Shown here in pieces: positions 22,543 to 28,500 of a stretch of DNA of 64,000 nucleotides (the stretch's first letter is position 1; the number at the start of each line of letters is the position of its first letter). The translations under genes and the position numbers were made by a program. The stretch lies in contig CAIIXF020000005.1 in NCBI GenBank assembly GCA_903813345.2, positions 10,047,375 to 10,111,374 of the forward strand. Reading direction: 5' to 3'. The stretch is from Owenia fusiformis (taxonomy: Eukaryota > Annelida > Polychaeta > Sabellida > Oweniidae). The notes under the pieces are model-generated. The model was given only the letters and a program-made list of their open reading frames with translations, was not told the DNA's origin and ran no database searches.

Positions 22543-25500
22543 TTAATCACTATCAGAGGCATCAGATCCACTATCAGCTTCCTGTACATTAATCGAGAAC
22601 TTATATTCCTGATCACAGCCGAGATATGCATCACTCATATAGTACAACATGTAGCTATGGTGGCCCACTGCGGGGGCTACAAAGTCCAGTTTCACCTTGG
22701 CTTTCTGTTGGAGGGTGAGACGTTTAATTGAGATGAGCGAGTTCGACTTGGTGTCTCCTATAATCACCCACCAGCCTTCTTCACGTTTCTGGAATATCGG
22801 AATAATTTTTCATTTAAATCCACAATGCAAATTATGAACAGTAATTTGACTTCAGTTTTGTGATTTATGTGGTAAAGGAATAGGTGATGAATTTCATGTC
22901 ATTTTAGAATGCAAAGCTTTAAGTTATATTAGAAAAAGATACCTTCCTAAATGTTATACCACAAGACCAAACACACAGAAGTTTGAGAAATTAATGAATT
23001 CAAACAAAAATATACTCATAAAACTTTGTAAATTTTTAATCGAGGCTGGGCAAAAAAATGTTCTTACATGTATATAAATGTTATTTTAATGTTTGTTACT
23101 GTATTAGTTAAGTTTGTCTTTTGTACTCTTATACCCTATAAGGGGTGAATTGAGAAATCAATAAATAAATAAATAAATAAAAAATATCAATCTATTTTAT
23201 TTCAAATACTTATTAAACGAGATATTGTACTTATACAAAATTATTAAAAATTGATTTATATCAATCTATCTGAAATATTTGTAAAATAAGAAATTGTACT
23301 TTATACAAAAATATTAAGAAATCCGCAAAGGATCTTACTGTCATGTACAGTAAAACCTGTCTTGTCCAAATACCACTAGGACTTGCCAAAGTGTTCAGAA
23401 CAGCAGGTTTTCACATTTCAAGTTTTTTTATAAAGGGAATCAATTGGAGATTAAAAAATAGGGACTGAAAGGGTGTTCATAATCACATTGAGAGGTGTTC
23501 AGATAACCGAGGTGTTCAAATATACAGGTCTCACTGTACTGTGAAAATCCCAAAAGCCAAGTGAGTGAATAAATGAATTGATATCACCTTTGGGACAAAC
23601 TTTTTATATCTGAAAAGCCAACTCACCTGCGGGAAGAACGGGGCAATAACAGGCCCAGACACGTCATCCTCACGCTCCAGGGTGACAACAATATTTACAG
23701 GTGAGCCACTTGAGATAGAAGCCTTATCCTGGACCTCATAGGTAAGCTCAATGTTCGGGTATCTGTTACAGAACCTTGCAACATCCGCCATTTGAGCCTC
23801 AGTCATCTTGAGGAGTTCATTGCGGTCTGCATCTTCCATCTCCATGACATCAAATATAGTGTCAACAGACTGCAACAGAAAACAAGGGTTAATATATTAA
23901 CTCTTATATTACCAAACATCACTAGTGATTTTATCTCATTTCCATGGTTTACTCAAGCAATTGTAGCATTTTTGAACAAGCCTTCTGCTGTATATAGTTA
24001 TTTCCATTAAAAAACGTACAAAGGTTACGTAGAAAGAGCATTACATAAGGGTTGGACATAGTTACATTCAAATATCCAACATATTTTGCCTCAAAATTAT
24101 CCAAATATTCAACATGTTTTGCCTAAAAAATTATCCAAATATCCAAAATGTTTTTCCTAAAAATTATCCAAATATCCAACATAAAGGGACTCAAAAGTTT
24201 TTGATTCAGTCATCTCATTGTAATAACTGTATTGTTACCCTGAGGCTAATTGTAATAGTTATAATCCTCCGAATATGACAAATAAATGACAGATAAAGTA
24301 TTAACAAGGCATTAACATGCAAAATGCCAGCGCCTGCCATTTATTACAGATGCCGACCTCCAAACACAGACCACTGAACACAAAAAGTTGGAGACTATAA
24401 CAATTGTGGTAACATAAAAACAGTACCATGTTGTCCAATCACTTACCTTCTCTTGACAAGCCTTGACGAGGTCTGCAGAGAAATGTGGGAGTTGTTTAAG
24501 ATAGGAGTCTCTGCTCCACATTGCCTGGGTAACCATTTGAGCCAGCTCCATAGCAGCCAGGGCTGGAGATAACCACCCATTACTACTAAGTACATCCACA
24601 CAAGCTTGAATTAACCTCACAGCCTACAAAAATAAAGAAAATTATATACAATCAATCAATGATTTTTTTTTAATGTTCCCTCGTATATGTGCGATCCAAT
24701 ATTGTGGTGTCCCAAAAAATCACTTTTTTGGAGTTGAGCTTAGCACAATTGGGGTTTGGTTCCTTTTGGGGAGTTTATTAAGTGTGTAAAATATTATAGA
24801 GACAGATCGATGTTTCAGTTGTTGGAATTAGACCTAAAAATGTAACGTTTTTGGCAAAAATCGCACTTTTTGACCAGATTTACTGAAGAATAATGGAAAC
24901 CTACCTCACCTTCTGTTCATAAATATGAAGGCTAAATGAAAGGTTGTGCACCACATTACCACTCTAAGTAAGAATACTGCTGAGATTTGGGTATATACCC
25001 TCCAAAAAGACTCTGAAATGAGGCTAAAAATGACATATTTTAAGATTGAAATCAATGGGTAACATTCATACGTATTACAAATGTTTTATTTAGCTATAGA
25101 TATGCAGATCACATAAGTAAGTTCAGATCAGTTCTTCAGGTCAGTTCTTCAGATAAAATTGTCCATATTGTCCATTTGTTGTTTGTTAAGGTTTTTAAAA
25201 TCAAGAAGCTGGCGGTGATGGTTAACCACCATCTGAACACGATCGCGGCGATCCACACCCTTACCGTAGTTTGCGAACTCGGTAACATCCTTGATTGCCC
25301 GTTCTGCACAATCGTTAACTACTTCCATGGAAGTAACGAGCTCCTTAAATCTAATATACTCTGGAAACTGATCCCAGTTGTCGGGATTAAATTCCATCCA
25401 GTGTACATCTACTTGAAAGAGGTCAAAAATTAACCATGACCTTTCCCCACCAAAGTTTTCAAGCGTGACGTCCCCTGGTCTTGTTAACAAGTGATCTTTC

Positions 25501-28500
25501 ATTTGTGTTTTCTGTGGAGGAAAGTTCTGGGGACGACCTGCATCTATCATTACTCTGATGATCTCAGATTTCTTCTCACCCTTGATGTTGTTGTCACATA
25601 GTGACAGAGGTAACAGTTCCTCAGAGAGGTACCACATATGCCGTTTAATGGATACAAGTACCTTGTTGACGAGTTCAGGATCAGATGCCTAAAAGCCAGA
25701 TGTTGGTTATTGTTCAGATTGCACATTATGATTTTGAATCTTGATTTTTCATTGTTCAATATTTTACATGACGAAAAAGAAGAATTGTTACCTGAAACTG
25801 AAGAGTATTCTCCCAGAACTCTAAATCCACCCGGGGAGCAACTGCAGGAATCATGGCCTGAAGGAAGAACTTGCCGTATAAGAAGAGAGTAAACCTTGCA
25901 ATTCTAACCACTTGTTGCAATTCTCTAGGAGTAACAATGTGTGGAGGAAGCTGGTGCCTAGTCATCAATATTTTGATGAGATATATTGCCTTTGACATAA
26001 ACCGCGCATGGCTAACTGCACCTGGTCTTTTCATACGCCACTGGTAGTTGTAAATGTTACCACCCAAACCTCGTCTTTGGACCTACATACCAAGATATCT
26101 CTCAAATTAAAATCAAGATGACAAGTACTGCGCATATTACTCATTTAGAGTTCTGGGAGAATACTCTTCAGTTTCAGGTAACAATTCTTCTTTTTCGTCA
26201 TGTAAAATATTGAACAATGAAAAATCAAGATTCAAAATCATAATGTGCAATCTGAACAATAACCAACATCTGGCTTTTAGGCATCTGATCCTGAACTCGT
26301 CAACAAGGTACTTGTATCCATTAAACGGCATATGTGGTACCTCTCTGAGGAACTGTTACCTCTGTCACTATGTGACAACAACATCAAGGGTGAGAAGAAA
26401 TCTGAGATCATCAGAGTAATGATAGATGCAGGTCGTCCCCAGAACTTTCCTCCACAGAAAACACAAATGAAAGATCACTTGTTAACAAGACCAGGGGACG
26501 TCACGCTTGAAAACTTTGGTGGGGAAAGGTCATGGTTAATTTTTGACCTCTTTCAAGTAGATGTACACTGGATGGAATTTAATCCCGACAACTGGGATCA
26601 GTTTCCAGAGTATATTAGATTTAAGGAGCTCGTTACTTCCATGGAAGTAGTTAACGATTGTGCAGAACGGGCAATCAAGGATGTTACCGAGTTCGCAAAC
26701 TACGGTAAGGGTGTGGATCGCCGCGATCGTGTTCAGATGGTGGTTAACCATCACCGCCAGCTTCTTGATTTTAAAAACCTTAACAAACAACAAATGGACA
26801 ATATGGACAATTTTATCTGAAGAACTGACCTGAAGAACTGATCTGAACTTACTTATGTGATCTGCATATCTATAGCTAAATAAAACATTTGTAATACGTA
26901 TGAATGTTACCCATTGATTTCAATCTTAAAATATGTCATTTTTAGCCTCATTTCAGAGTCTTTTTGGAGGGTATATACCCAAATCTCAGCAGTATTCTTA
27001 CTTAGAGTGGTAATGTGGTGCACAACCTTTCATTTAGCCTTCATTTTTATGAACAGAAGGTGAGGTAGGTTTCCATTATTCTTCAGTAAATCTGGTCAAA
27101 AAGTGCGATTTTTGCCAAAAACGTTACATTTTTAGGTCTAATTCCAACAACTGAAACATCGATCTGTCTCTATAATATTTTACACACTTAATAAACTCCC
27201 CAAAAGGAACCAAACCCCAATTGTGCTAAGCTCAACTCCAAAAAAGTGATTTTTTGGGACACCCTAGCTCAGAGATCCCATCCTTTTTTGTGTTATCCCA
27301 TGCTGATTTCAGGGAACATAACTTGGAGGGTCCATTTTTAGCAACCCCATTTTTTAAGTGATCTCTCATTTTTGAGAGATTTCAAGTTTTGCCAATCCCA
27401 ATTTTTTGATTTATCTTACATATTGACTAAATCCAATGAAAGTAATTTAAAAAATCACAAATAGAACACACAGTAGAGGTCTTGGGTTCAAACCCAGGTC
27501 ACAGCACTTCTTGTGATTTGTCTTTGACCTATGACTGCTGACCTATACCGGCGATTACTAGAGTGCTGCTAACTCGATAAAAGGCCGGCGCTGGCTAGAA
27601 TTGTCTATGGTTCTAGCCAGGATAAAGATACCAGTTCTTCAACTCGACAATGGGAAGAACTGCTCTATCTTAGTGACTAATATGTCATGATATGACATCT
27701 AAAGAGTCGATAAAAGATATATATACAATACAAAGCTACTTTTGAACAAAATTATTTCATTTGCACACAAATATAGATCACTTATATGTGCTTTTACCTT
27801 ATTCAGTATTTGTTCAGTATCTGACTGTAGTTCTGCAGAGAGTTGCATTCTGGAGAGATGAGCCTGGATTAACAGGTTTGTCTTCACATGGGGGTCGTTA
27901 AACTTGGGGTTGTTTATCTTGTTAGGCAGCTTAGCAGCTAACTGAAATATCAAATATATGTAATTAACAAAGATAATCTTGTAAAATGCAATTTTCATAA
28001 TTTCATAGTTCAATCACATAAGGTTATTGAATCCATGGCCAAGGATGATGAAAATCATTTTGATCCAACAAAAAGCAGAGAATTTTCAATTTTTAGCTTT
28101 TTGTCATTAACTGGCCACTTAAATTGGTGGCAGCGAATTTCAAAAGGTTTATTATTGGGTACATCTGTCTGATGACACACCAAATATTGTTTTGCAAAAT
28201 CTTAGACCAGAAATATTAGATTACTAATAAGATAATTAGATTACATTGGTTTTACAGTGTGGATGAAAATCACAAATGTACAGTACTTGATGTCTTCTAA
28301 GCAACAATGATTTTCTAGATTAAAACATTTAGAGACCATACCTGTTTGAGAATAGAGTCTTCATTATGCCTGATGGAAAGTTCCTCATACTCTGCAGCAT
28401 TAGAGATAATCTCTATGAGGCCTCGTATCTTTGTCTTAGCATTGAGAGACATACTGAACAGCTCTATAGTTGTGTAGTTGATGTAGTAATAGGCTGAGAT

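Follow-up and report, generated by a model that had tools for sequence, protein, structure and literature searches.

A kilobase-scale inverted repeat in an SNRNP200 intron of Owenia fusiformis is probably a same-end derivative of a hAT-like transposon

We analyzed a 64,000-nucleotide stretch of the genome of the annelid Owenia fusiformis (contig CAIIXF020000005.1 of GenBank assembly GCA_903813345.2, positions 10,047,375 to 10,111,374; hereafter, the window), which contains a long inverted repeat in an intron of SNRNP200. The two arms of the repeat (24706-25826 and 26143-27263) are each 1,121 nt long, align without indels, and are separated by a spacer of 316 nt. They are 99.9% identical: the sole mismatch is at 24924, which is T, versus A in the reverse-complemented right arm. 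The coordinates, arm length, spacer, lack of indels, and single mismatch are exactly as given in a first-pass annotation of this DNA, which had also placed the repeat in an SNRNP200 intron. That placement holds as well. On the minus strand, coding sequence at 27798-27944 matches residues 1870-1918 of human Brr2/SNRNP200, and a coding exon at 24447-24623 matches residues 1919-1977. Because these matches adjoin in the protein and the 3,174 nt between them (24624-27797, minus strand) have GT and AG splice sites at their ends, the repeat lies within a single intron. A direct repeat with a spacing of 33-34 bp (24066-24199) lies beyond the exon at 24447-24623, presumably in the next intron of SNRNP200.

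We searched for other inverted repeats whose arms were 200 bp or longer, matched at 85% identity or more, and lay less than 3 kb apart. Just one other pair was found in the window (10723-11370, 259 bp at 89% identity), and 124,614 bp of sequence flanking the sister copies that are described below contained four pairs, the longest being 361 bp at 92%. No second near-perfect inverted repeat of kilobase length was found in the window or in these flanks with this filter. Because the sample holds just short and less similar pairs, the 1,121-bp repeat is far from what is expected by chance; this genome has many inverted repeats of a more modest kind. The window also contains an inverted pair of 165 bp (47714-48585, 98% identity, 542 bp apart), and both this pair and the one at 10723-11370 are perhaps elements like miniature inverted-repeat transposable elements. 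A dispersed repeat of 461 bp occurs in inverted orientation at 4425-4885 and 54480-54940 (95% alike, 49.6 kb apart).

Used as a query against the genome, the left arm had 22 matches. (These genome searches skip very common words, and their results are lower bounds.) We fetched 10 further loci (L001 to L010), which cover every arm match outside the window. Nine loci, including the one in the window, share the arm sequence at about 98-100% identity; L009 and L010 are diverged relatives. One of the nine, L006 (C4:28.78 Mb), has two unlike ends, which we term L and R. It spans 3,788 bp between GGTG ends, and its L and R ends are alike over about 164 bp at 90% identity, which forms a terminal inverted repeat (TIR). 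The arms correspond to the R end, and we count positions (p) inward, starting at the outer R end of L006. Seven of the nine loci (the window copy, L001 to L005, and L008) have R at both ends (R-R), and the remaining one, L007, is one-armed.

L006 has reading frames of 494, 112, 171, and 179 amino acids in a row, and the exons in the window correspond to the first 62 amino acids of the third frame and all of the fourth. We presume that these frames encode a transposase. A gene of several coding exons for it lies within TIRs in L006 (1518-4341) and in two relatives, L025 (1144-4033) and L026 (974-4107). In the window, the left arm (minus strand) is p1-1121, and the spacer (25827-26142, coding on the minus strand) continues it inward, on one side only, to p1421. 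The right arm (plus strand) is the inverted R end, p1121-1, and the two halves meet at 26142/26143 with a microhomology of 1 nt. Thus, the frame with the last coding exon is present twice (179 amino acids plus the stop codon), at 25149-25688 on the minus strand and at 26281-26820 on the plus strand. The frame that holds the preceding exon (about 99 of its 108 amino acids) is at 25756-26082 on the minus strand, and just its final codons are repeated in the right arm. The whole derivative spans 24706-27266, including CTA at its right terminus; the left terminal TAG is absent. L006 lacks 17 bp within the region that corresponds to the spacer, which is a deletion in the third exon relative to all five of the arms that span it.

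The arms are the R end of a hAT-like DNA transposon, and the exons that they carry come from the 3' part of the gene that presumably encodes its transposase. The first-pass annotation had ascribed this exon sequence to a multi-copy type of gene; that gene is the transposon's own presumed transposase gene. A captured host gene was rejected as the source, as the exons lie inside an element with terminal repeats and target duplications and L006 has further exons upstream. Our genome searches did not find an intact source element. The interior of L006 beside L matched L006 alone, and a search from the L side found no locus with two L ends. Among the diverged relatives, L009 (1018-5518) is an old R-end relative, split by about 3.6 kb of sequence with 275-bp inverted ends; within L009 is a short inverted piece of p1220-1254.

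The ends of hAT elements have the motif YARNG, and the ends of this family fit it. The common outer end is GGTGTCCCAAAAAATCAC, with TAG before every inspected end except the left end of the window copy, which gives TAGGGTG...CACCCTA and the terminal motif TAGGG. Perfect 8-bp target duplications flank six of the eight two-ended loci: L002 (GGCTACCA), L003 (GAATACAG), L004 (TACCTGAG), L005 (CTGTATAA), L006 (ACAGTACT), and L008 (CAATACAC). L001 has TTTTACTT at its right and the same sequence minus 2 nt at its left. In the window copy, the terminal CTA and the 8 nt that would be the target duplication, GCTCAGAG, are at 27264-27274, and the left junction has no copy of them. From the ends and the duplications, we infer that the family belongs to the hAT superfamily. 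Two stretches in the presumed transposase, DTTSSNTG and CRHH, are reminiscent of hAT motifs. A phmmer search of PDB with the presumed transposase gave a best E value of 0.25, and the predicted structure of the window's 179-amino-acid exon alone was unusable (mean predicted local distance difference test score of 34.7). The target has TA at sites 4-5 in five of seven duplications (reading L001 from its right copy and excluding the 8 nt of the window copy, which have CA) and in none of the three duplications of the related family described below. The reported target of the Buster group of hAT elements is nnnTAnnn (PMC3517528).

Because the arms are 99.9% identical, we considered the worry raised in the first-pass annotation that the repeat is an assembly artefact, such as a fold-back chimeric read or a false duplication. 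However, the arms stop at most 3 nt from a transposon terminus, and the flanking sequences are not mirrored. Six other loci have the same architecture with different breakpoints, and five of these have their own perfect target duplications. We therefore regard an artefact as extremely unlikely.

Inside their shared ends, the palindromes differ. From one end to the other, the window copy consists of p1-1421 and 1121-1; L001, of p1-1166, 1789-1072, and 903-1; L002, of p1-1443 and 1064-1; L003, of p1-1032, 1248-1405, and 1280-1; L004, of p1-1583, 5 extra nt, and 948-1; L005, of p1-1230, a piece of the L end (3691-3786), 1698-1213, and 757-1; and L008, of p1-484, a nested repeat, 1286-1308, and 750-1. 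The one-armed L007 has p1-862 followed by a nested repeat, and its other end is missing from the stretch that we fetched. No inner breakpoint is common to any two R-R loci. The two nested repeats have inverted ends and differ from each other: the one in L008 (1474-2603, about 1.13 kb) lies near the centre of the palindrome, and the one in L007 (2440-3253) is about 0.81 kb. Both are high copy in the genome (for each, 40 candidates were scored, of 932 for L008 and of 870 for L007).

Two of the palindromes retain L sequence. At the left terminus of L003, the five sites that distinguish L from R (43, 63, 64, 69, and 92) all carry the L base, and the sequence is that of R from 97 onward. In L005, the inner piece (96 bp) is 100% like the L end and 94.7% like the R end. 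The L-type terminus of L003 and the L-end remnant in L005 point to parents with L and R ends. The simplest account of the hybrid terminus of L003 is that a strand being copied from the L repeat moved over to the R repeat within the sequence that the two share; it is also possible that the terminus was converted later.

We think it probable that a hAT-like cut-and-paste transposon gave rise to the inverted repeat by template-switching repair and that the repeat is a non-autonomous derivative with the same end on both sides (R-R). The parent would have had unlike ends, L and R, that share a TIR of about 164 bp, with the 3' exons of the presumed transposase gene beside R. During an activity burst, template-switching DNA synthesis would have repaired copies that had broken or been excised, and the occasion was probably gap repair after excision. 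A strand that was copying the L end would cross into the homologous R end and continue inward, and the junction between two products growing inward would lie within the element, frequently at a short homology. Each such event would swap the L end for a second, inverted R end and yield a palindrome with its own inner breakpoint. The SNRNP200 copy would be a passive resident of the intron. Template switching at microhomologies has been described in the gap repair of TIR elements (PMC8277862), and template switching during gap repair has been offered as an explanation for defective copies of Galileo (PMC4168063).

At 5 of the 10 junctions that could be measured exactly, the overlap is at least 3 nt, versus 6.2% for random pairs of positions. 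The first junction of L001 could not be measured exactly (the BLAST overlap is 4) and was scored as under 3 in a binomial test (5 of 11, P = 3e-4). Several observations count against formation of a hAT-like derivative by template switching. Two junctions have no homology, two have just 1 nt, and the L004 junction has 5 extra nt, which repeat the preceding TTGGA. The proposal does not account for the bias toward R-R over L-L palindromes, 7 to 0 (two-sided P = 0.016, post hoc). No Pfam transposase model scored above its curated cutoff in the window's exons or in the given frames of L006, L025, and L026. Finally, the window copy has neither a target duplication nor the left TAG.

The main rival for the origin of the family is that one long R-R master palindrome transposed to seven sites and that its unstable centre was deleted differently at each of them. 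Most of the structures can be drawn as central deletions of a palindrome that reaches at least p1789, and the arms form a star in which most of the differences are private substitutions. However, the L-type outer 92 bp of L003 and the L-end piece inside L005 count against such a master, and our genome searches found no intact master and no common breakpoint. We consider this alternative to be unlikely. Excluding the five sites that distinguish L from R, the two arms of a locus differ by 0.38% (seven loci), and arms from different loci differ by 0.46%; over the first 480 columns, the mean number of differences is 1.57 within loci and 1.50 between them. Because arms differ about as much within loci as between them, the palindromes seem to have arisen in a burst, with no homogenization since. 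Homogenization of the arms after formation is unsupported outside of the window copy.

The window copy is the exception. Either its last step was unlike that of the other palindromes or its left junction was deleted later. In the former case, that step might have been the joining of a broken chromosome end to a snap-back copy or to a free R end. At the left junction, AATATTGT is directly followed by GGTG, versus CACC-CTA followed by GCTCAGAG at the right, and a second copy of GCTCAGAG is absent nearby in the window. Also, site 43 is A in both arms of the window copy; it is likewise A in the left arm of L003 and at the L end of L006 but G in the remaining R-type arms. The two arms differ at 1 of 1,121 sites, fewer than the 5.0 that the other six palindromes would predict (P = 0.04), but this P value is weak and post hoc, and an ordinary insertion that later suffered a deletion at its left junction would explain the missing duplication equally well. 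We view joining to a broken end as possible but doubtful. The window copy may be the youngest of the palindromes, or such a joining may have produced it.

Relatives of the presumed transposase are numerous in this genome (90 protein-level matches). As controls, we chose 10 stretches (L025 to L034, of which L027 and L034 overlap) from 90 and 8 protein-level matches; these include a related family whose protein is 56-65% identical. The three two-ended control copies (L025, L029, and L033) have terminal repeats of 323-325 bp, and all three have 8-bp duplications; two of the three have shortened interiors. A more distant relative, L026, has terminal repeats of 478 bp around its gene. Thus, R-R palindromes are not how all relatives decay here, although three or four copies are few.

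Other palindromes also lie close to open reading frames (ORFs). L002 ends about 0.3 kb before an ORF that matches XPG_I_2, which we take to be ASTE1-like. An ORF with a YTH domain lies about 0.5 kb from the start of L004; a search around L004 for the start motif of YTHDF, which would indicate an intron, returned nothing. The open frames on both sides of L003 have no Pfam match; they are reminiscent of rotatin. Given these neighbors of L002, L003, and L004, insertion in or near genes is probably not special to the SNRNP200 copy.

The minus-strand RNA of the element has a predicted minimum-energy fold with 1,120 in-register pairs between the arms (about -2174 kcal/mol), so this RNA could fold into a stem, as the first-pass annotation had envisaged. 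The transcript of the SNRNP200 intron could thus form about 1.1 kb of double-stranded RNA (dsRNA). The genome has one match to Dicer_dimer, matches to the Piwi domain at four places, and matches to A_deamin (adenosine deaminase) at five, so dsRNA could meet RNA interference (RNAi) or editing. A search of the genome for RNA-dependent RNA polymerase gave no match, but the controls also gave none, so this search is uninformative. The 22 genomic matches of the left arm, a lower bound, are only to the transposon's own family and its diverged relatives, and no host target was found in this search of the genomic DNA.

It is conceivable that the hairpin is functional: read-through from SNRNP200, or from another host gene, would yield dsRNA, and Dicer would process it to small interfering RNAs (siRNAs) against the transposase, which would make the element a natural self-silencer, as has been proposed for Mu killer of maize. 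Besides the predicted stem and the RNAi and editing domains encoded in the genome, the arms carry the last exon of the presumed transposase. The shorter arm measures at least 757 nt in all of the palindromes but L008 (six of seven) and reaches well into that exon; in L008, it is 484 nt. Mu killer has the same anatomy (PMC3440606). However, no target was found outside of the transposon family and its relatives, and the sole L-R copy that we found carries the 17-bp deletion in the presumed transposase region. Because seven or more palindromes arose, whether one after another or simultaneously, the early ones did not immediately halt the family. Furthermore, in maize, sense read-through transcripts of Mu killer accompanied a failure of silencing and antisense ones accompanied silencing (PMC3440606). 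On balance, we judge a functional hairpin to be quite improbable. A broader proposal is that the family limits itself: same-end palindromes would be its regular fate, the asymmetry of the ends would drive repair to cross from L to R, and a hairpin against its own transposase would fire in transcribed introns such as that of SNRNP200. We regard this as a long shot.

Animal hairpin RNA (hpRNA) loci are defined by their siRNAs. The structural feature of such loci, a long inverted repeat that can fold as RNA, is present here in the predicted fold. As in hpRNA loci and in the natural RNAi of Tc1 in Caenorhabditis elegans (PMC3878927, PMC10317233), the transcript of an inverted repeat could fold to dsRNA. 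The palindromes also resemble the products of abortive gap repair and of gap filling in Pack-TIR elements, in which templates switch at microhomologies inside TIR elements; those products have internal deletions and captured foreign DNA (PMC8277862), while here one end has been duplicated in inverted orientation. In Galileo (of the P superfamily) and in Foldback-like elements of Drosophila, the terminal repeats reach into the last portion of the transposase ORF (in one copy, over more than 500 bp), and faulty gap repair with template switching has been proposed for the defective copies (PMC4168063). Galileo belongs to another superfamily, and long repeats are usual in it, whereas here the L-R copy has a TIR of about 164 bp, and in the palindromes an entire R end has taken the place of L. 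Among titles and abstracts in the literature, with subscription papers largely outside our reach, we found no clear case of same-end palindromes of hAT elements.

Mutator elements make target duplications of 9 bp, so the 8-bp duplications and TAGGG ends do not fit a Mutator origin. Still, the anatomy parallels that of Mu killer (Muk), in which both terminal repeats are from one end of an element, two partial copies of the transposase gene adjoin in an inverted duplication, this duplication is about 1.3 kb (versus 1.1 kb here), and the locus lies between two host genes (PMC3440606). The palindromes described here likewise have both termini from one end and a partial, inverted transposase gene. 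Mu killer differs in being a derivative of a plant MuDR element, with the end on the mudrA side, and in being a single locus that silences its family (PMC3440606); the Owenia family is hAT-like, is from an animal, includes the 3' part of the gene, and has seven such loci. The palindromes may work like Muk, without being members of Mutator, and small-RNA data could address whether they silence their family, with no need for more genetics. The centre of Mu killer could not be read in the 2012 study in which it was sequenced (PMC3440606). In this genome, seven same-end palindromes are assembled, each with its own breakpoints, which makes the origin of hairpin derivatives readable, and L003 is a fossil of the switch from L to R, narrowed to a few bases. 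Overall, a same-end palindromic derivative of a transposon is a known kind of element, and the repeat described here is a very well preserved example of it, with the anatomy of Mu killer, seven-fold, in a hAT-like element of an animal.

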